Shown: positions 2,428-27,266 of the stretch, piece after piece
Numbering within the stretch: the first letter of the stretch is position 1
Layout: each line of letters begins with the position of its first letter
IMG/VR virus record: IMGVR_UViG_3300045119_000091
Coordinates: 1 to 33,844 of that record
Reading direction: 5' to 3' (one strand)
Length of the DNA stretch: 33,844 nucleotides
Source of the DNA: a virus
The notes under the pieces: generated by a model
Databases searched by the model: none
What the model was told of the DNA's origin: nothing
The model's input: only the letters and a program-made list of their open reading frames with translations
Made by a program: the position numbers and the translations under genes

Positions 2428-3273
2428 ATGGCGTTACGTGGTGTTAAACCTGAAAAGGTAGAGAAGAGATTAAAGGCTTTATTTTATGGTTCAGCAGGCG
2501 TTGGTAAAACTACTGCGGCTATATCATTCCCTCGCGTTTATCTGATAGATACAGAAAAAGGTGCTGAAAATAGTCAATACACAGATACTCTATCAAAGAA
2601 CGGCGGTGTAGTATTTCAGACATCAGACTTTAATGAACTCATGACAGAAGTAAAGGCATTGCTAACAGAAAAGCACGAATATAAGACGCTGGTTATTGAC
2701 CCACTAACAACTCTTTATAATGACTTGTTAGACAAATCAGCATTAAAAAACGGTACTGAATTTGGTCGTCATTACTCTGATGCTAACAAACAGATTAAAC
2801 ATTTACTAAATTTGCTATTACGCCTAGACATGAATGTGATAATCACTAGTCACTCAAAGAATGAATACGGACAAAATATGTCGGTACTTGGGCAAACATT
2901 TGATTGTTATAAGAAATTAGATTATCTTTTTGACTTAGTGTTTGAGGTGCAGAAAAGAGGGAAAGAGAGGGTAGGTTTAATTAAAAAGTCTCGCATAGAA
3001 TCATTTCCAGATACAGAGCATTTTCCATTTTCTTATGCAGAAATATCAAAAAGATATGGTCGTGAAATACTTGAGCGTGATGCTGTAGCTCAAGAGGTTG
3101 CAGATATACACCAGGTTAACGATTTGCTAAGGCTAATAGACTTGTTAAAAGTTCCATCAGAAATATATCAAAAATGGCTGGATAAATCAGGCTCTGATAC
3201 ATGGGAAGATATGCCTCGTGACGCAATACAAAAATGCATCGATCACTTAAAGTCAAAAATACAAGGAGAGTAA
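2428..3273 (+). CDS. Sak4-like RecA-fold ATPase (phage recombinase accessory, AAA_24 type)
   Basis: A 281-residue protein with Walker A GSAGVGKTT at residues 21-29 and Walker B TLVIDPLT ending at D91. The later segments NVIITSHSKNEYGQ and KKLDYLFDLVFEV are typical of the phage nucleotide-binding proteins grouped as Sak4/AAA_24, single-domain RecA relatives that promote strand annealing. An AGTAGGAG ribosome site precedes the ATG. The next gene, three bases downstream, is an SSB-like protein, the partner usually found with Sak4. Role: homologous recombination or repair of phage DNA. Confidence 0.8.
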   Translation: MALRGVKPEKVEKRLKALFYGSAGVGKTTAAISFPRVYLIDTEKGAENSQYTDTLSKNGGVVFQTSDFNELMTEVKALLTEKHEYKTLVIDPLTTLYNDLLDKSALKNGTEFGRHYSDANKQIKHLLNLLLRLDMNVIITSHSKNEYGQNMSVLGQTFDCYKKLDYLFDLVFEVQKRGKERVGLIKKSRIESFPDTEHFPFSYAEISKRYGREILERDAVAQEVADIHQVNDLLRLIDLLKVPSEIYQKWLDKSGSDTWEDMPRDAIQKCIDHLKSKIQGE

Positions 3274-3276
3274 TAA

Positions 3277-3735
3277 ATGTTTGAGTATCAAGTTTATAGT
3301 GAAGCCCAGGCCAGTGTAGAACGGTTTAATCTCCTCAAGGACGGGGAGTATGATGCAGTGATAGAGAAATCCATGGACAAAATATCATCAAGTGGAAATC
3401 CAATGATGGATATGACTTTGTCAGTATTTGATGAAAATGGCATGCAATATACCATAAGGGACTTTCTAGTTTTCACGCCTAAGATGATGTGGAAAATAGT
3501 TAATTGTGCTAAGTCTGCAAATGTTATTGAGCAATACGAATCACAAAATTTTTGTTCGGAACTTATGGAAAGTAAACGAGTTCGTGTAAAAATAAGTACT
3601 GAAAAGGGTGGAATTATTTTAGAAGATAAGTTAAAAGGTAAATCTTTTGGTTCCAAATATCCAGATAAGAATAAAATAGAAGATTATATTTCAATATATG
3701 TGAATAAATTTAATGACGATGATATAGCTTTTTAA
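3277..3735 (+). CDS. SSB-like single-stranded DNA-binding protein (DUF669-like)
   Basis: A 152-residue protein directly after the Sak4-like gene, with a GGAG ribosome site in that gene's 3' end. The N-terminal part is beta-rich, with GEYDAVIEKS followed by a GNPMMDMTLSVF strand, as in phage DUF669 proteins. The last residues NDDDIAF closely match the acidic tip of bacterial SSB (DDDIPF), which docks repair and replication proteins. The tip is the strongest evidence. OB fold and DNA binding are inferred. Confidence 0.75.
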   Translation: MFEYQVYSEAQASVERFNLLKDGEYDAVIEKSMDKISSSGNPMMDMTLSVFDENGMQYTIRDFLVFTPKMMWKIVNCAKSANVIEQYESQNFCSELMESKRVRVKISTEKGGIILEDKLKGKSFGSKYPDKNKIEDYISIYVNKFNDDDIAF

Positions 3736-4582: not shown

Positions 4583-4857
4583 ATCAAGAATCAGGTACAG
4601 ATTTCTTAATATATCCGTATTTATCAGGTGATAATCGACTATGTTTAGGTGTGCGGTCTGTAGATTTCAATGCTAATTGCTGTGTAAGAATTCAGTTGCA
4701 TGAAGATGTGGTTTCAGAGATATTGAATGCCCTTAATAAAGCACAAAAAGATATGGTATCAGCAGTAAAACAAGGTAATCTTATAAAAGATATTAAGTGT
4801 AAACTTTGCGTAGTTGACCGGGGAATATGCACTATTTGCGGTAAGGATTACAGATGA
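4579..4857 (+). CDS. Small protein with C-terminal zinc-knuckle-like tail (92 aa)
   Basis: ATGA overlaps with both the upstream and downstream genes. The C-terminus CKLCVVDRGICTICGKDYR has two CxxC pairs and the same CxxCGxxYR ending as the preceding gene. The rest shows no known motif. It is probably part of a translationally coupled cassette. Confidence 0.6.
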   Translation: MNQESGTDFLIYPYLSGDNRLCLGVRSVDFNANCCVRIQLHEDVVSEILNALNKAQKDMVSAVKQGNLIKDIKCKLCVVDRGICTICGKDYR

Positions 4858-5063
4858 ATGAATTCACGAAAGAAGAGTTAATCTTATTGGCATGCTGGTC
4901 TGTTAATAGATGTTTAAAAATAGGGTTAGAGCAGGCGAAAGATGAAGGAACTATTGCTTTATCACATAAACTACAAGATATAATTATTAATTATTGTGAG
5001 CATGATATGCAAGCTTTGACAACGTTTACAGATATATGTACTAAATGTGGAGAAATATTTTAA
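4854..5063 (+). CDS. MNEFTKE-family small protein, copy 1 (69 aa)
   Basis: Begins MNEFTKEELILL and ends CEHDMQALTTFTDICTKCGE. The gene at 5229 has the same start and end, and the one at 6977 shares the start, so this is a multi-copy phage family. C/H residues in CEHD and CTKC could bind a metal. It overlaps the upstream gene by ATGA. Function unknown. Confidence 0.65.
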   Translation: MNEFTKEELILLACWSVNRCLKIGLEQAKDEGTIALSHKLQDIIINYCEHDMQALTTFTDICTKCGEIF

Positions 5064-5228: not shown

Positions 5229-5435
5229 ATGAATGATTTCACGAAAGAAGATTTATTAATTATCTATCTTGACATGTGTACTTATGTAGAGCAAAAAAAG
5301 ATTCTAAAAGAATCGCATACTCATAAAGAATTAAGGCTTAAAGTACAATCTATGATTGACAATTATTGTGAACATGACTTTCAGGCGTTAACTTCTTTTA
5401 GAGACATTTGTAGTAAATGTGGAGAAATTCTTTAA
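5229..5435 (+). CDS. MNEFTKE-family small protein, copy 2 (68 aa)
   Basis: Begins MNDFTKEDLLII and ends CEHDFQALTSFRDICSKCGE, nearly the same as copy 1 at 4854 at both ends but diverged in the middle. The pattern suggests gene duplication within this cassette with conserved terminal motifs. The stop overlaps the next ATG (TAATG). Confidence 0.65.
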   Translation: MNDFTKEDLLIIYLDMCTYVEQKKILKESHTHKELRLKVQSMIDNYCEHDFQALTSFRDICSKCGEIL

Positions 5436-5940: not shown

Positions 5941-6240
5941 GTGTTAAATGAATCATCTTTAAGTGAACAATATATTGCAGATCTAAAAATTATAGTAGAT
6001 TTAACAAATGGATATATTTTATCATTTGTTAAAGAAATTGATCCAAAGAATTACAAAGATAATATTGAGCTATTTATTAGTACCTCTTTATCAGGACCTT
6101 CAATGATAGCTGCCGTAATTATAGATAAACTGTCAGGAACATTTCATCTTGATAGAAAAAAGGTTATGAAAAACTTTATTAAAAAATTAGAACTTTCAAT
6201 TAAAATAGTTGAACAAAAATATAAACAGGATAATAAATGA
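5941..6240 (+). CDS. Hypothetical protein (99 aa)
   Basis: GTG start at 5941 with AAGGAAG about 8 nt upstream; no in-frame ATG lies nearby. The sequence is rich in Ile, Lys and Ser and looks alpha-helical, with a basic C-terminal half. The stop overlaps the next ATG by four bases. No family is recognised. Confidence 0.6.
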   Translation: MLNESSLSEQYIADLKIIVDLTNGYILSFVKEIDPKNYKDNIELFISTSLSGPSMIAAVIIDKLSGTFHLDRKKVMKNFIKKLELSIKIVEQKYKQDNK

Positions 6241-6611
6241 ATTTCAGTGACGCAATGGAAAAATTAAAATCTGGTTCAAAGATAACTAGGCATGAATGGA
6301 AGAGTCTTCTTTATTTCATGATGCAAGATGATGTGATTAAATCTTTTCAATCAAGAATTTCTACTTATGTTTATTGCGAAGACATTATGACATCAAGCGG
6401 CTGGCTCATTGATAGTGATGAAAAAGAATATTCCTTCTGCGATATTATTGGTCCATTACAGTCAGGATCTAACGCTAGATTAAAAGAATGGAAGGAAGCA
6501 TATATTTACTTTGACCATTCTGTAAAAGAAATTGTTATTCATAACATGGAATATTATCCTTTTGTTCCTGCTTTTGATTCTTTTGTTAAAGAAGACTGGA
6601 TTGAATTATAA
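6237..6611 (+). CDS. Tandem-duplicated Tad2-like (DUF2829) protein, candidate anti-Thoeris sponge
   Basis: The 124 residues show two copies of one motif. Residues 3-22 (F-S-D...LKSGSKITRHEWK) align with 67-86 (F-C-D...LQSGSNARLKEWK). Each is followed by an aromatic strand, and the chain ends KEDWIEL, the closing DW motif of DUF2829. Tad2 proteins of this family bind and sequester cyclic nucleotide signals of Thoeris defence. A second, single-domain member lies at 27012-27266. The family call rests on motif pattern. The fused-pair architecture is seen directly. Whether it still binds a signal is unknown. Confidence 0.6.
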   Translation: MNFSDAMEKLKSGSKITRHEWKSLLYFMMQDDVIKSFQSRISTYVYCEDIMTSSGWLIDSDEKEYSFCDIIGPLQSGSNARLKEWKEAYIYFDHSVKEIVIHNMEYYPFVPAFDSFVKEDWIEL

Positions 6612-6613
6612 TT

Positions 6614-6802
6614 ATGTCATTCAAAGACAAAACATTCTGTGCCTCACCCAATTGTAAAAATAAATGTGGTAGGAAAATGACAGAGAATGAAAAAGATCAG
6701 TATATTCAAATGGTGTCTCGTCTGCATTTTAGTATTCCAGTATCTTATGCATATTTTTGTGTTGAACCAGAGGAAGAAAAGGGAATTTTAAATGTTAAAT
6801 AA
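6614..6802 (+). CDS. Small Cys-rich phage protein, likely zinc-binding (62 aa)
   Basis: Starts two bases after the preceding gene. FCASPNCKNKCGRKMT near the start and SYAYFCVEP near the end resemble a short protein common in phages of Gram-negative bacteria. The four cysteines suggest a metal site. Function unknown. Confidence 0.65.
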   Translation: MSFKDKTFCASPNCKNKCGRKMTENEKDQYIQMVSRLHFSIPVSYAYFCVEPEEEKGILNVK

Positions 6803-6976: not shown

Positions 6977-7162
6977 ATGAATGAATTTACGAAAGAAGAA
7001 ATAAAGTGGCTTTATGAAGACATAGTTACTGCATTAGGTGAACACATGCATTCTACAAGCATGGCATACCGAGTAACTGAAAAGCTAAAAGTAATGATTG
7101 ATGATCTTGAAATTTCTTATTTAGAAAAATCATTAGATGATCCTAAGCTCCAAGGATTGTAA
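6977..7162 (+). CDS. MNEFTKE-family small protein, copy 3 (61 aa)
   Basis: The N-terminus MNEFTKEEIKWLYEDI matches copies at 4854 and 5229, and KVMIDD parallels their KVQSMIDN segment. It lacks the C-terminal CEHD...CxKCGE part, so it is a shortened or diverged paralogue. Function unknown. Confidence 0.6.
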   Translation: MNEFTKEEIKWLYEDIVTALGEHMHSTSMAYRVTEKLKVMIDDLEISYLEKSLDDPKLQGL

Positions 7163-7647: not shown

Positions 7648-8322
7648 ATGGACCATGAAAAAAAATGCTGTTGTCCTGGTGAAAAAGGTGACCGTGGAGA
7701 CAAAGGCGAACAAGGAATGCAGGGTGTTCAAGGAATTGCAGGTCACGATGGTGTTCAAGGAATTGCAGGACCACAAGGTATTCAGGGACCTAAAGGTGAT
7801 AAAGGTGATTGCATGCAATGCGAAAATGAATGCCATTGCCCAGAGCCTGAATTTGCTGAAGTATTCTCAATTACAACTCAAGATCTTGGAGCATCTCCTG
7901 GTCCCAATCTTGCAGGCCAAACAGTAGTTCTTGAAAATACCATTTTTAATACACCCAATATTGATTTATCTATGGCTTCTATTAATGGTAAAGTTAAAAT
8001 TAATCGTGCGGGTTGGTATGATGTTTTCACAGGAATGTGTGGTTCTTTAAATCCTGTATCATCTCCTTTGCCAGTATGGACACTATCTTTGTTTAAAAAT
8101 GGAATCATTGTTCCAGGATCCACATTTGCAAACATGACCTTAAGTCCGGAACAAAAAGCAAATGAAATATGTGCTGATGTATTGGTTCATTTTTTAGTTG
8201 GAGATATTGTTGAATTAGCAAACACATCAGTTTCTAATGTTGTGCTCACAGCACCAACCTTTGGTACAAATGCACCCACAAATTCAGCATATCTAAAACT
8301 TATCTTGCTTAAAGCTGACTGA
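7648..8322 (+). CDS. Collagen-like protein with C-terminal beta-sandwich domain (224 aa)
   Basis: Preceded by AATAAGGAGA. Residues 11-55 are fifteen consecutive Gly-X-Y triplets rich in GDK, GPQ and GIQ, flanked by Cys-rich segments (CCCPG before, CMQCENECHCP after) that could cross-link or nucleate a trimer. The C-terminal ~150 residues resemble the C1q/TNF-like or BclA-type jelly-roll that trimerises such proteins. There is no signal peptide. It could be a virion appendage or a host-surface decoration. It lies on the strand opposite the virion genes and is closed by a clear terminator. Confidence 0.75.
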   Translation: MDHEKKCCCPGEKGDRGDKGEQGMQGVQGIAGHDGVQGIAGPQGIQGPKGDKGDCMQCENECHCPEPEFAEVFSITTQDLGASPGPNLAGQTVVLENTIFNTPNIDLSMASINGKVKINRAGWYDVFTGMCGSLNPVSSPLPVWTLSLFKNGIIVPGSTFANMTLSPEQKANEICADVLVHFLVGDIVELANTSVSNVVLTAPTFGTNAPTNSAYLKLILLKAD

Positions 8323-8703: not shown

Positions 8704-8935
8704 TACATATCGATGGTTGAATAAAGAAAAGTCACGTTATTATACAATTGCCATTCAAAAACGCTCACCAGGTGAAATAATATTAAATTATTCATGGGGA
8801 GGATGTAATTCAAATCGAGGCGGCAAGAAAAGTTTATTGGTTGAAAGTCATGAAGAGGTACAAAAGTACGTCAACTTAATGATGAAGAGGCGCAAAAGCC
8901 GTGGTTATGAGCTTATCGCGCCAATAATGCATTAA
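8696..8935 (+). CDS. Stand-alone WGR-domain protein (79 aa)
   Basis: RYYTIAIQKRSPGEIILNYSW is followed by GGCNSNRGGKKS and a helix EEVQKYVNLMMKRRKSRGYEL. This matches the WGR domain, a small beta-rich fold with a Trp-Gly core and a following helix, found in PARPs and in bacterial and phage proteins. In PARP1 the domain contacts DNA ends; here the role is unknown. It is the last rightward gene. Its stop codon overlaps that of the convergent tail gene. Confidence 0.65.
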   Translation: MNNTYRWLNKEKSRYYTIAIQKRSPGEIILNYSWGGCNSNRGGKKSLLVESHEEVQKYVNLMMKRRKSRGYELIAPIMH

Positions 8936-9639
8936 CGCATTCTTCTTGCTCCTATCCATCCATAAGCGCCCATGGTTGATACTGCAAATACAAGGGTCGT
9001 TACTAGATAAACGGTAGTTGTTCCTGCAAGACTTATTCTGCAAGACCCAACTGGAAAACCTAGTGTTAGATTTGCAGCGGCTGCAATATTTGTGAAATTA
9101 ACAAATGCATTATTTGGACCTGAGCCAGGTAATGTCGCTGATACTGTGTTAATGGCCGCGCTGTATGCTGAGGTAGTAGTACCAGCAGCTGGTAATGTAT
9201 AGACCGTACCGAACACATCCCAGTCTCCAGCAGTTAGTGATATTGATGTAATATTTACGCAAACTGTTGAAGTTACAGCAACTGGAGTACCAATTCCTAT
9301 GTTTGAGCTTATAAATTCGCCGACATAACTCGCCGCTGCATTGTTGTTTGTAGGAGTACCAACGATTCCTTTTGTTGTTGGGCTGAATGTCACGCTTCCA
9401 AATGTAACATCACTTGTTGTTGCAATTGACTGAGGAAGACTTAGAGTTACGGGACCTACGGATGCAGAGGCAATGACTTGATTTGCGGTGCCCGTAATTG
9501 TTGTAGTAGCAACACTACCAATTAATGCAGCTAATTGAGTACAAGTTTCTTTATATGTGACGCCAGCTTGAACTACTGGAAAAATATCTGTTAATGATGG
9601 TGCTGCTATCGCTGGCAATGCGCTTATTTTGACGCCCAT
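8932..9639 (-). CDS. Tail appendage/fibre-type virion protein (235 aa)
   Basis: The N-terminus GVKISALPAIAAPSLTDIFP is shared with the 751-aa protein just upstream, so the first ~45 residues are probably a common virion-attachment or assembly module. The remainder is rich in Thr, Ala, Ser and Val, with beta-strand alternation, as in phage fibre tips. It ends with a basic RRMR tail. It is the most distal gene of the late operon. Host-recognition role is inferred. Confidence 0.6.
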   Translation of the reverse strand: MGVKISALPAIAAPSLTDIFPVVQAGVTYKETCTQLAALIGSVATTTITGTANQVIASASVGPVTLSLPQSIATTSDVTFGSVTFSPTTKGIVGTPTNNNAAASYVGEFISSNIGIGTPVAVTSTVCVNITSISLTAGDWDVFGTVYTLPAAGTTTSAYSAAINTVSATLPGSGPNNAFVNFTNIAAAANLTLGFPVGSCRISLAGTTTVYLVTTLVFAVSTMGAYGWIGARRMR

Positions 9640-9652
9640 GTGAAACTCCTTG

Positions 9653-11908
9653 TTAAACTGATATAAATTCCGTTACTACTAAATAACCTGCGGTCCCCGC
9701 GGAGCCTGTTTGAGCCGCACTTAAATTCCCGCCGCCCCCGCCACCGGAACCAAACCCATTGCCAGCAGTACCAGGGTTATTTGATGCCGCACTTGTACCG
9801 ATTCCTCCCGCACCAAAGGGAGATGATCCGCCATTACCTCCGCATCCTAGAAGTGCCGCCCCTGCTGATAATCCCGGGGAACCAGGTTGACCATTAGATG
9901 TTGCAATAGTGGTTCCTGAACTGACTGTTGGCACTCCTCCAACGCTTCCTATTATGAAATTTGATCCAACTCCCACAGGGCCTGCAGCACCACCTGTGCA
10001 TGAAAATAAAGTTGCTCCGAACGTCGTAGTTCCTCCGGCGCCTCCTACTGCCGCACTTCCTCCGGCAGCACCTGCAGCCCCTATTGTTACGCCTTTTGAT
10101 GCGCCAATTTGAGCCGCCGTATATAGAACTTTTGCATATCCACCTGAACCTGCTCCCGGCGCACATACATAGGTTACTGAACCACCAGAGGCAGTACCAC
10201 CAGATCCCCCGCCTCCTGCAACCCCCTCAACGATGCAAAACTGCATTCCAGTTGTTGGGGTATACGTACCATTACCGGTAAATGACTGTACAACTACCTG
10301 AGTAATCGGCTTTCCAGTTGACCATGTTGGTGTTGTACTTGCGCCAGACAACAATGTCAATCCAGCTGTTGCAGTTCCTGCAAGTATTGCAAGCGCACTC
10401 GCATTTGAATAAACTATGCCCCCGTTACTAGCTGTTAGTGCAGCATTAGCTCCGCCTTGTGCAAGAGTGACTTGATTTTCACCTGATACGGCGGTCCCTG
10501 TAGCGGCATAATATGCAACTTGGCCAATAGTCCCGCTATTAACCGTTCCTGTTCCCGTTGACGGAGAAGAAGACCAGTTTGTGCCATCAGAGGTTAAAAC
10601 GTTACCTGAGGTTCCGGCGGTAGTTGGGAAGGTAGCAGTCGTATAAGCATTGGTTGTGCCATCCGAGCGCAATATCTTACCAGCAGTCCCTACAGTATTT
10701 GGCCATAAAGAAGTCGAGGCTATATAGTTTGTTCCATCCGAAATAAGTATCGCGCCACTGGCACCACTACCACTCGGGAATGTTGGAGTTGACCAAGTAG
10801 GCGCAGCTGTAGCACCTGATTGAAGCATCTTACCCGCAGTGGCAGTACCCGATAAAATTGCTCCTGCTGTTGCTGTACTGTAAAATATACCCCCATTGCT
10901 TGCAGTTAAACTTGCATTCGTGCCTCCGCGAGTTAATCCTAGTTGTCCAGTCCATCCCAATGTTAAGGAGGTGGCTTGTAAAAGAGCTGTTGCAGGAGTT
11001 CCGCCTAATGTTAATGTCACATTGGTGTCATCAGTTTTCGTAAGGGCTGCCGGCACGACTCCTGGAACTGATTGCCAGGTAGGCAGCAATCCTGCTCCAT
11101 TGGACACTAAAACTTGGTTGGCAGTACCTACGCCGCTCACATTCTGGAAAGTTCCTGTGGCTGTGGTGCCTGCGCAAATAACTGAATAAGCTGTAAAGGT
11201 TGTATTTCCAGTACCTCCTAAAGGGACTGTTACCGGCGTAAATCCTGCCACTAATGATCCACTTGCTAATGCGCCGACCGTTGTAATTGACGATTGTCCA
11301 ACATATAAGGCGGAGATATCTATTACAGGAGTGTTGCCCCCTGTTGATGTAATACGGTTTGCAGTTCCGCTGACTGAGGTGACGCCGGTTCCTGCGGGTA
11401 TTGCCCATGTTCCATCACCTCTCCAGAATGTTGTAGCTCCAGCACTTGTTCCGCTGTTTAAATTAGTAACTGGAAGATTTCCCGTGACACCCGTAGTTAA
11501 TGGCAAACCTGTGGCATTAGTAAGCGTTCCTGAGCTGGGCGTGCCTAATGCGCCATTGAATGTGACGAACGCACCTGGGGAACCCACATTAATACCTAAT
11601 GCAGTTGCGACACCTGTACCGAATGCGCTAATTCCCGTCCCACCTCTAGATACTGCTAATTGTCCTGTCCATCCAAGTGTCATAGATGTTGCATTTAATA
11701 ATGCGATTGTAGGAGAGCCACCCAGTATCATTGTAACATTAGTATCATTTGTGCTTGTTAATGCGTTACCGTTGGCTTGAAATAATGTTAGAAGCTGTTG
11801 ATTTGATTCTTGATAAGTCACCGGCCCTGGTAATTGGTCGACAGGATACACATCGGTTAATAATGCCGATGGAGCTACTGGAAGCGCCGAAATTTTTATG
11901 CCTGACAT
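9653..11908 (-). CDS. Large repetitive tail fibre protein with glycine-rich tip (751 aa)
   Basis: The N-terminus SGIKISALP...LTDVYPV is shared with the next gene. The body is built from repeats: [20 protein letters not shown] and related TNDTNV..., LGWTGQL..(S/T)RGGT twice, and LTASNGGI(F/V)YS...TATAG twice, an arrangement frequent in phage fibres. The last ~200 residues are glycine-rich ([24 protein letters not shown]), like glycine-rich receptor-binding tips. The ATG follows CGGAG. Probable fibre or receptor-binding protein. Confidence 0.75.
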
Positions 11909-22438: not shown

Positions 22439-23650
22439 TTAAGATAATACACGGACTGCATATTGTGGATGCCATTTAAAGCCGCACAATAAATCTAGAC
22501 GCATATAGTTTTGATATCCTAAAATATCCCCGGTTTGTGTTACAGCAAGTGATAATCCTGTTTCGGGATCTACTGCAACCGATGCATAAGGAACTTGTAG
22601 TTTATATAAAGGAGGGCAAACGATATCAAGGCCACGAGAAGGATAAGCCACGTTCACATTATGTGAGCCAACCATGGTCACAGCCGCATCATCAGGAATA
22701 GCATTACTGACGTTACGATTAGGATTTAATGTATCAGATATAATTATAGGAGCCACAAGAACTGTGATGTTGCCTGCGCCATCAGAGCTTGCATTGGCAG
22801 TTACGACAAACTGCATATCTTGACCGGTTGATGCACGCCCTACAGGATTGACCGACTGCACGCCAGCTATAGAAATAACATCCCCAACTACAAAGTAGTC
22901 AGTGACGGTAAATGAGGCACCGTCCATAACGATTGTAGCGCCAGATGTAACCGCACCATTTACAAGCAGCGCATCGGAAGAATGAAGACGAGGTCCTGCA
23001 CCTGCAATGTGACGTTTAATATTTTGAGATTGGAAAATGTCAAAATAGGATAGGTGACCGATAGCGCTTGAACGGACGATATCTTCATTAAATACTGGTG
23101 TGAAGTTATTGAGCAGAGCACCTTTTAATGAGGAACCATCACGAACAGTCATTGCCATGTACGCATCGGATGCAATATTAACGCCTTGCTCCAGAAGTTT
23201 CGCACCAGCTGTATCAACGGTCGTAAAGGAGTTAATCGCTACACCTGCAGTACCTGTGAAGAAGTTTAGGTCTTGTTCGGCAGAAGACGCGATATCTTTT
23301 TCCATCTGAGTTATTACTTCCTGTATTGCAGGGGCAATAAATAAACGGGAGAAATCTTCAATTCTTAATGATAAATCTTGAATAGTATAAGCTATTAAAG
23401 CGTGGTATTGATGCGCTACAACGATAGATTCAACCGTTTCAATGATTGATTGAGGGGTTGCGACACTACCATCACCTACGATAAAATGATTTTGTCTTCT
23501 GACTTGTAACGTATCTCCTATCTTATAACCAGAAGACACAAAATCATCCTGGTAAATTCTTGAAGCTGTCATTACAAAAGGTGCGTTATTGGCAAACATT
23601 GCCAATGCTGTGTTACTGACTAAGTCAGTTGTAATAAATTGGTTAGCCAT
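22439..23650 (-). CDS. Major capsid (coat) protein, P22 gp5-like (403 aa)
   Basis: ANQFITTDLVSNTALAMFAN at the start, then VRRQNHFIVGDG, LIAYTIQDLSLRIEDFSRLF and LLCGFKWHPQYAVRVL at the end match the P22-type coat family (HK97-fold shell protein with the same N-terminal helix and spine elements). The length of 403 is close to P22's 430. It lies directly downstream of the scaffold gene, as expected. The start codon is preceded by a nested hairpin containing the ribosome site. Confidence 0.8.
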   Translation of the reverse strand: MANQFITTDLVSNTALAMFANNAPFVMTASRIYQDDFVSSGYKIGDTLQVRRQNHFIVGDGSVATPQSIIETVESIVVAHQYHALIAYTIQDLSLRIEDFSRLFIAPAIQEVITQMEKDIASSAEQDLNFFTGTAGVAINSFTTVDTAGAKLLEQGVNIASDAYMAMTVRDGSSLKGALLNNFTPVFNEDIVRSSAIGHLSYFDIFQSQNIKRHIAGAGPRLHSSDALLVNGAVTSGATIVMDGASFTVTDYFVVGDVISIAGVQSVNPVGRASTGQDMQFVVTANASSDGAGNITVLVAPIIISDTLNPNRNVSNAIPDDAAVTMVGSHNVNVAYPSRGLDIVCPPLYKLQVPYASVAVDPETGLSLAVTQTGDILGYQNYMRLDLLCGFKWHPQYAVRVLS

Positions 23651-24703: not shown

Positions 24704-26902
24704 TTATTTATGATTTGGATTATTATGTTTATGTATATCCGATAACACGGATGCAAGCTTTGATGAAAAGTCTTTTTCACTCTTATCAGCATCTAATAAT
24801 AATCTTCCATGGTCTACCTTAATCTTTTGCTGCTCAAGGCCCATTTTTGATTTCATCTCTTGGGCTTTTAAAATCATTTCGGCTTGGTCAAGCATATGCT
24901 TTTCTTTACGAATCTTTAATTCTTCTGCACGCTCCATTAACGCTTGTTCTTCAAGATGCATCTTTTGTTCATTCATCTGCATCATTTGTTGTTGGGCTTG
25001 CATTTGTTGTTGGGCCATCATTTGTTGGGGGTCTGGCTGTTGAGGAGGAGGTGGTTTACCTTCTTCTTTAGCAAGTATTTCAGGAGGCACCATTGTTTTA
25101 AACCGCTCTGCAATTTGCGGCATGAACTGTACGTCAAGATTCTTAGCCCATAGGTCTGCAATAAGAGGAAATGTCTGAGGATTAGCTTGTAAAGTCTGCT
25201 GAAAGAATTCCAAAGCTATATCTTTTTGTACCGCAAAGCTAGGACCTGTATCGATTTCTACATCGTAATCACCGGATTCTAATACATTCTCTCGTTGTTC
25301 TTGGCCATCTTCTGAATTGCCAACTAATTTGTTTAAAGTGATAGAATCTGTGCGCCCATCGGCCTTTGATATAACCATATGACGCTCATTTTCACCAATT
25401 ATTGTTGGAAGCAAATCAAGTACAACCCGCCCTCCTTGCTCAATCGCTTGATTAAGATTATCAAAGTAGACATAAGCTGACATGGATCCTTCAAGTTTGC
25501 GCTCACGACGAGCTTTACCTGACATATCACGTCCTTGAAGAGCTTCATTTTCAGAGAAACCCAATATTTCACGTATATCCTGACAGCCTCTTTGATATTG
25601 TTGCAATAGAGACTGTGACATCTCCCATGGCGGCATTTTATTTGGCATAGCTCCTGTTTTAGGATCGGGCTTTGCTATTAATATCCCATTTTGCAGCTCA
25701 GGATTTCTCCACATTTGCTCATTACCAAGAATGTTATCAGGCGTGCCAATCCATTGTTCACGGCGACGGTTTTTAATCTCAGCCGCAACCTCAGAACCCA
25801 CATAGTTAACAAACTTCTGCGCATCCTTTGCTTCATGAATAAATGAGCGTGTATACTGCTGCCCGTTAATAAAGTTCGAATCTCCATCTACAAATATAAG
25901 TGGCAGGTATTTAGAAGGCCAGTCTGTGAACTCTATTACCTGGTTTTGAGTCATCATATATTGTCGAATCTTATAATCTTTGCTCATTCTATCGCCGTGT
26001 ATCTCAGGGATTGACCGGCGTATCATATCTCCAACAACTTGAGAACCTTGTGCTAGCTGCTTTTTCATCTCAATTTCTTTTTGCATATCCTCCCATTCAT
26101 CCTCAGTAACAGTACTGCCATCTGTTAATAGGAGAATCTTTAAGGGATACCACTCTTTCCTGTTGTATTTGCATACGACTATTGTGTCTCTGGTTTCCCA
26201 TTGAAAGTCTAGTAGTGAGCGAGGGTCAGAGTACGATACTGGATTCATTACCCAGGGAAACGTTGCATAGAATTCTTCTTTTGTGTAAACATATTGTCTT
26301 CCACAAAAGTTACCATCTCCCTTATGGGGCTTCATAGCTGTTGGGTCAAATGATGTACGTGTTACATCAGGTATTATTTCGTAGGCTATCTTTTGATTAA
26401 ATGAGCGTGGATTTTCATATTCTAAACATATCTCAAACGCACCATAGCCCATCATGAGAGCTTGCTTAAAGGCTGTTTGATAGATTAAATCATTTTGTGA
26501 TTGGTAGGATATTGTTCTAACAAGGTCTGCTCGTAAGTCGATTTGAGCTTGCTTTGATTTTCCAGTAAGTGATCTAACCATTAAGTCTGGTTTATTTTTT
26601 CTTTGCTCTCCCACAACTTTCTTTGTGGTATCATAGAGCTTATTGAATGTCATTGCAGGTTTAAAAAGGCGCGTAAACTCTGAGCGCTCAACCGCTGACC
26701 ATTGGTCACGCAGCACAAAGTTCATGTCATCTTTACCGCGAGTCATATTTTCGCCGAAGTAGCCATCCCAAAGCACCAAATCTTCACGAGCTTTCTTTAA
26801 GACTTCCGCTTCATCAATTCCTGCATCTTCAAGCCTGTCTTGAAGTTCTTCATTAATGCTATCAATGTCATCGACTGACATCTGTTCGGCAATTATTTCC
26901 AT
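24704..26902 (-). CDS. Portal protein, P22 gp1-like (732 aa)
   Basis: ATG 26902 is chosen over TTG 26911 because the AGGA-loop hairpin (26906-26921) ends three bases before it. LVLWDGYFGENMTRGKDDMN, AMTFNKLYDTTKKVVGEQRK and FIHEAKDAQKFVNYVGSEVA match the P22-type portal family. The C-terminal ~100 residues are Gln/Met-rich coiled coil (QQMMAQQQMQAQQQ, LEEQALMERAEELK), like the P22 barrel. The length of 732 is near P22's 725. It forms the dodecameric DNA entry ring. Confidence 0.85.
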   Translation of the reverse strand: MEIIAEQMSVDDIDSINEELQDRLEDAGIDEAEVLKKAREDLVLWDGYFGENMTRGKDDMNFVLRDQWSAVERSEFTRLFKPAMTFNKLYDTTKKVVGEQRKNKPDLMVRSLTGKSKQAQIDLRADLVRTISYQSQNDLIYQTAFKQALMMGYGAFEICLEYENPRSFNQKIAYEIIPDVTRTSFDPTAMKPHKGDGNFCGRQYVYTKEEFYATFPWVMNPVSYSDPRSLLDFQWETRDTIVVCKYNRKEWYPLKILLLTDGSTVTEDEWEDMQKEIEMKKQLAQGSQVVGDMIRRSIPEIHGDRMSKDYKIRQYMMTQNQVIEFTDWPSKYLPLIFVDGDSNFINGQQYTRSFIHEAKDAQKFVNYVGSEVAAEIKNRRREQWIGTPDNILGNEQMWRNPELQNGILIAKPDPKTGAMPNKMPPWEMSQSLLQQYQRGCQDIREILGFSENEALQGRDMSGKARRERKLEGSMSAYVYFDNLNQAIEQGGRVVLDLLPTIIGENERHMVISKADGRTDSITLNKLVGNSEDGQEQRENVLESGDYDVEIDTGPSFAVQKDIALEFFQQTLQANPQTFPLIADLWAKNLDVQFMPQIAERFKTMVPPEILAKEEGKPPPPQQPDPQQMMAQQQMQAQQQMMQMNEQKMHLEEQALMERAEELKIRKEKHMLDQAEMILKAQEMKSKMGLEQQKIKVDHGRLLLDADKSEKDFSSKLASVLSDIHKHNNPNHK

Positions 26903-26905
26903 GAC

Positions 26906-26921
26906 ACTCAATCCTTTGAGT
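26906..26921 (-). promoter_or_regulatory. Shine-Dalgarno hairpin of the portal gene
   Basis: Minus strand: ACTCAA-AGGA-TTGAGT, GTC, then ATG. A 6-bp perfect stem with a tetraloop of pure SD sequence. Confidence 0.65.
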
Positions 26922-27011: not shown

Positions 27012-27266
27012 TTAACAACCAGCGTTACTTTCAGTCGTAGCAACTTCAATTGGCTCTTTTGATATTTCAAACTTTTCCCAATCATCAGCTACTAAATCCT
27101 CAATTGAGAATATATAATTACCAGCATTTGGGGTGGGATGTAAAACAATCTTCCATGCATGAGACATGCCAGGCATACACACGATATAACCGTCTTGTGG
27201 AACCCATCCTGTACGATGCATGCATTCCCCGTCTTTTAATAAATCAATAGCTGCTTGTAACAACAT
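27012..27266 (-). CDS. Tad2-like (DUF2829) protein, candidate anti-Thoeris sponge (84 aa)
   Basis: QAAIDLLKDGECMHRTGWV, then YIVCM and the closing FSIEDLVADDWEKFE give the DUF2829 pattern A..LLK.G....R.GW...YI...(Y/F)...DL.A.DW. Characterised Tad2 proteins of this family capture Thoeris signal molecules. The gene lies in the head operon between small structural genes and the portal, with CAAGGAG before the ATG. A duplicated relative is at 6237-6611. Activity is inferred. Confidence 0.65.
   Translation of the reverse strand: MLLQAAIDLLKDGECMHRTGWVPQDGYIVCMPGMSHAWKIVLHPTPNAGNYIFSIEDLVADDWEKFEISKEPIEVATTESNAGC

Follow-up and report, generated by a model that had tools for sequence, protein, structure and literature searches.

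Those Tad2 proteins that have been characterised act by sequestering gcADPR, His-ADPR or cyclic dinucleotides (PMC12043709; PMC13299392). SPO1 Tad2 (gp34.65; PDB 8SME/8SMF/8SMG/8WJE), from a Bacillus phage, is one domain of 89 amino acids that forms a homotetramer (PMC12043709). Two protomers build the Tad2 pocket: one supplies its β1-β2 loop, β3-β4 loop and strand β4, and the other its β1-β2 loop, β4-α3 loop and helix α3 (review, PMC12043709). In HgmTad2 (AcrIIA7) and SptTad2 (PDB 8KBI-8KBM, 8WJC, 8WJD, 9KZR), an insert between β2 and the later strands is reported to bind cyclic dinucleotides (PMC12043709). ModTad2, from a Myroides odoratus prophage (PDB 8V3E, 9EIB), is a His-ADPR binder. All solved Tad2 proteins that we encountered are single domains, and the characterised ones are symmetric oligomers with equivalent pockets. 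We found no description of tandem Tad2 proteins in the literature searched, a set that did not include the original Tad2 papers.

Here, we analysed a 33,844-base IMG/VR virus record, the whole of which we call the window. It encodes a protein that appears to consist of two shortened copies of the Tad2-like fold in one chain.

Two Tad2-like units in one chain

The open reading frame translates to 124 amino acids, as first read, and divides into two halves of equal length.

6237..6611, + strand: tandem Tad2-like protein, 124 aa
6237..6422, + strand: N-terminal Tad2-like half, residues 1-62 (from the AlphaFold2 model m06890b8ab5e0 and conservation)
6423..6608, + strand: C-terminal Tad2-like half, residues 63-124 (from the AlphaFold2 model and conservation)

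The whole protein scores 39.2 bits against PF11195, in two matched stretches, which is above the curated gathering score of 25 bits and places it in the family. Scored separately, the halves reach 24.4 bits (N-half) and 13.3 bits (C-half), so neither passes 25 by itself. All 17 aligned tandem members match PF11195 at E ≤ 0.01. Residues 3-22 and 67-86 form the top ungapped 20-residue internal match (9/20 identical, BLOSUM62 score 43), a score that none of 500 shuffles reached (shuffle maximum, 36), and D120-W121 close the chain near its C-terminus. The repeated DUF2829 opening, the terminal DW motif and the family match had each been proposed in a sequence-only reading of this DNA, and all three are borne out.

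The two halves are also homologous at the profile level. With profiles built from 43 relatives, hhalign aligned the N-half to the C-half at a score of 42.3 (E = 1e-8), and the highest of 200 column-shuffled controls scored 18.4. We reject a chance internal repeat on this result together with the 500 shuffles. Each half profile can also be aligned, almost end to end, with a single-domain Tad2-like protein encoded by the same phages.

AlphaFold2, run on the monomer with 17 sequences (pLDDT 93.2, pTM 0.74), predicted a helix-strand-strand-strand-helix-strand order in both halves. The predicted elements are H3-11, E16-18, E25-30, E33-43, H48-52 and E56-58 in the N-half, which keeps R18-x-x-W21, and H67-75, E79-82, E89-93, E98-106, H113-117 and E121-123 in the C-half, which retains W85 and D120-W121 and lacks the Arg. 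The N-half was first read as truncated, given that it matches Pfam profile positions 1-59 only; this was dropped because the model shows the full element set. One long strand is modelled in the tandem protein where the single-domain protein has a β3-β4 pair.

A Foldseek search of the PDB with the tandem model returned Tad2 proteins as its first eight matches, ModTad2 at the top, with E values of 0.02-0.2 and no match at E ≤ 1e-3. These alignments spread one Tad2 chain across both halves (~11 Å rmsd), so the fold identity of each half rests on sequence profiles and element order. The prediction of two Tad2-like folds stands at the level of secondary-structure order, at which the folds were compared, and is accompanied by profile homology. 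At the sequence level, the PDB relatives are Tad2 or AcrIIA7 proteins, with ModTad2 among the top matches. The likeness of the halves, the AlphaFold2 model and the PF11195 match together indicate two Tad2-like units per chain.

A constrained family in related uncultivated phages

Tandem relatives were collected with a family-alignment search, which yielded 42 IMG/VR loci and one contig in a metagenome-assembled genome (MAG). The 43 distinct sequences are nearly all 124 to 128 amino acids long, and their carriers are related, uncultivated phages of ~34 kb with P22-like portals. The window protein alone, used as the query, found no relatives in public phages or IMG/VR, and a tblastn search of 50,697 public phage records gave no convincing tandem relative (best E, 0.4). 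The relatives emerged only through contigs related by their terminase large subunit (TerL), and then by family alignment. A close TerL is encoded by 45 IMG/VR contigs, while TerL relatives among public phages reach at most about 40% identity. When we scanned 38 of these 45 contigs with PF11195, the matches fell into two classes. One is a single-domain protein encoded near the terminase; the other, present in many contigs, is a protein of ~125 amino acids that matches twice and is encoded elsewhere in the genome. Among TerL-selected records of at least 30 kb, the tandem gene occurs in 10 of 15 and the single-domain gene in 14 of 15.

Elsewhere, this architecture was not seen. None of 80 canonical Tad2-like loci sampled from IMG/VR was tandem; these were fetched by canonical motifs, which biases the frequency of W-N-G more than it does the number of domains. 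A canonical N-terminal query matched 273 places, spread over 271 public phage records, so repeated Tad2-like copies are rare in public phages. We also checked 15 PF11195-carrying records: 14 were public phages without a tandem protein, and the fifteenth was the MAG contig of the tandem family. The expectation that the protein departs from canonical, single-domain Tad2 therefore agrees with both the 80-locus sample and the public records.

The family is under purifying selection, with a median dN/dS of ~0.12 and constraint on both halves, and 11 columns are invariant across 17 tandem members. These values bear on whether the gene is a decaying, non-functional remnant, or an ordinary open reading frame with a chance repeat. 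Loss of the canonical motifs (below) and a C-half that alone falls under the Pfam cut-off would fit such a remnant, but the dN/dS, the near-constant length of 43 distinct members, the invariant columns and a repeat unmatched in 500 shuffles strongly disfavour it, and we regard it as extremely improbable.

In a phylogenetic tree, the N-halves, the C-halves and the single proteins fall into three separate groups, all of them supported. The order of the groups is not separated (p-AU of 0.23 for N- and C-halves together, 0.27 for N-halves with single proteins and 0.42 for C-halves with single proteins). Because each set of halves is one supported clade, the family likely descends from one ancestral tandem protein, formed by internal duplication or by fusion of two different Tad2-like genes. 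A Tad2-like ancestor would have been duplicated or fused once, before the tandem phage group diversified, and both halves may then have been trimmed to about 62 amino acids.

Lost and retained Tad2 signatures

The tandem protein shares PF11195 and a predicted Tad2-like element order with SPO1 Tad2, along with the opening helix with G13, R18 and W21 and the closing D-W. Unlike SPO1 Tad2, which is one domain, it has two shortened units per chain and lacks W-N-G, S-x-x-D and the β3-β4 hairpin. ModTad2 likewise differs in being a single domain with canonical pocket-loop motifs. HgmTad2 and SptTad2 are single-domain members of the same family, and their β2 insert is absent from the tandem protein.

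Eleven residues are invariant among 11 aligned canonical public proteins: G13, R18, G20, W21, N22, G23, W69, S72, D75, D80 and W81 (position 1 being the second Met of SPO1 Tad2). The W-N-G motif occurs in every public canonical protein compared (13/13) and in none of the 43 N-halves or 43 C-halves, which thus lack the R-x-G-W-N-G feature of the β1-β2 loop of functional Tad2. The S-x-x-D that precedes the final A-x-D-W shows the same pattern (13/13 canonical proteins, 0/43 N-halves, 0/43 C-halves). By their position in the sequence, W-N-G would lie in the β1-β2 loop and S-x-x-D in the β4-α3 loop. A-x-D-W itself is kept in 42/43 C-halves and 2/43 N-halves, the latter mostly ending in D-G-W. R18 is found in all N-halves; an Arg occupies the same place in 5/43 C-halves, which mostly have Leu or Met there. 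From first to last W, the median spacing is 35-36 residues in tandem halves; in canonical proteins it is 62 (range, 55-78).

The halves have decayed complementarily, the N-half keeping R-x-x-W and the C-half A-x-D-W, and this is the most interesting new feature of the family. One specific form of this idea is that the N-half R-x-x-W loop and the C-half A-x-D-W helix constitute a divided ancestral pocket, an asymmetric composite that captures an immune signal bound by no known Tad2; we consider this quite improbable. The suggestion that a built-in dimer alters the ligand range or targets another signalling defence is not supported as it was put. With W-N-G and S-x-x-D absent from 43/43 proteins, a change of either ligand or function is the more cautious interpretation. 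With two pocket features of the functional Tad2 class (immune-signal sponges) missing, membership of that class is not established, and an anti-Thoeris Tad2 label cannot be given from sequence.

A Bacteroides phage C3_41T2LP protein annotated as DUF2829 (L150:786-1190) also lacks W-N-G, with a PF11195 score of only 36 bits. Loss of the canonical motif is therefore not unique to the tandem phage group.

Genome context and a single-domain companion

The tandem gene lies with AAA/DUF669 replication genes; the structural block is on the opposite strand. Its main neighbours and the structural landmarks of the window are as follows.

2428..3735, + strand: AAA_24/Sak4-like ATPase and DUF669/SSB-like gene, upstream of the tandem gene; 41/43 tandem-bearing loci have a homologue of each
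6614..6802, + strand: small Cys-containing protein, encoded immediately after the tandem gene; 23/43 tandem-bearing loci have a homologue
22439-23650, structural block: major head protein
24704-26911, structural block: P22-like portal
27012..27266, − strand: second, single-domain Tad2-like protein, 84 aa (P0002), from a PF11195 score over the cut-off, AlphaFold2 and Foldseek

The small genes between AAA/DUF669 and the tandem gene vary among loci, and the tandem gene is more persistent. Two neighbouring small proteins of the window (4854-5063 and 5229-5435, + strand) are paralogous, with a common M-N-[ED]-F-T-K-E-[ED] and a conserved NYCEHDxQALTxFxDICxKCGEI tail; a possible third paralogue (6977-7162) shares only the M-N-[ED]-F-T-K-E-[ED] start. 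Further on, 7648-8322 (+ strand) encodes collagen-like G-x-y repeats and, after them, a C-terminal part that is probably globular, and has no homologue among the tandem-bearing neighbour loci. Two adjacent probable tail genes (8932-9639 and 9653-11908, − strand) have a common N-terminal module, KISALP...LTDxxPVxQ...VTYxE, which suggests that they share an attachment piece and differ in interchangeable ends.

The single-domain gene, an addition to what the sequence-only reading had found, sits in the structural block near the terminase large subunit gene. Its AlphaFold2 element order is H-E-E-E-E-H-E, and the top 24 PDB matches in Foldseek are all Tad2/AcrIIA7 (probability, 0.99-1.0). It has PF11195, RxxW and DW in common with the tandem family (hhalign E = 1.2e-8), and differs in having both β3 and β4, a near-invariant WKIVLxPxPNAGNYIF stretch (across 34 relatives) and its place on the other strand. 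Within the phage group it is even commoner than its tandem counterpart: each of the 21 near-complete records (≥30 kb) with a tandem gene, the window included, carries it as well, and four near-complete records (G006, G015, G025 and G029) carry it without a tandem gene.

This co-occurrence raises the possibility that the tandem protein has been repurposed for a job internal to the phage, for instance as a regulatory scaffold or by forming hetero-oligomers with the single-domain protein, and binds no immune signal. The pairing in 21/21 records, the lost pocket signatures, and a tandem gene that occurs in two-thirds of the longer TerL-selected records and outlasts the small genes around it are all consistent with such a role. 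However, the four records with the single gene only indicate that this gene does not need the tandem, and common phage ancestry alone could account for the co-occurrence. We consider an internal role doubtful, though a serious contender.

A position among variable small genes, and again the loss of the small-molecule pocket motifs, would also suit a counter-defence protein that directly binds a host defence protein instead of a signal molecule. The AcrIIA7 name of a Tad2-family member invites this comparison, since entries labelled AcrIIA7 or "Inhibitor of Type II CRISPR-Cas system" occur among the relatives by sequence and by fold. Yet the same AcrIIA7 entries were solved with 1',2'-cADPR and cGG, according to the entry descriptions, and the Acr label is thus no evidence of protein binding; the tandem protein's resemblance to AcrIIA7, a class defined by inhibition of Cas9, is at the family level only. 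Direct inhibition is unlikely, and we rank it third, after the internal partner and, ahead of both, counter-defence through a signal.

No host or defence system could be linked to the tandem phages from the records examined. One contig of 34 kb (L136, JAHFOW010000001.1), binned with a Planctomycetota MAG, has both Tad2-like genes, and its size and gene content make it probable that the whole phage itself was placed in the bin. PF11195 is rare in Planctomycetota (2/392 genomes, this bin included), and the bin placement is only a weak hint of a Planctomycetota host.

Proposed function and significance

Our analysis directly supports two homologous units, a conserved tandem architecture, the predicted element order, purifying selection, motif loss and co-occurrence with a single-domain paralogue. 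As to function, we tentatively favour, as the leading candidate, an early counter-defence protein: an intramolecular Tad2 pseudo-dimer that would bind a host immune signal, with a changed ligand. Early expression is probable because the gene sits with replication genes, and this position, together with the fact that characterised members of the family counter host signalling, makes early counter-defence our best guess. The missing pocket signatures, the short W spacing, the single long strand, the weak Foldseek matches and the failure to link a host or defence system weigh against it. The two halves most likely pack like two Tad2 protomers, and one or two tandem chains would stand in for the four chains of the usual homotetramer. 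The ligand is probably other than gcADPR held in the SPO1 way, since neither pocket-loop signature survives and the halves have kept different signature parts.

A conserved tandem lets two protomers evolve separately, which is a simple route to a new or asymmetric ligand. The diverged single-domain copy in the same phages provides a natural comparison pair. If the tandem protein binds a signal, it would point to an immune messenger of unknown environmental hosts; if it binds none, a PF11195 match alone should not earn an anti-Thoeris annotation.
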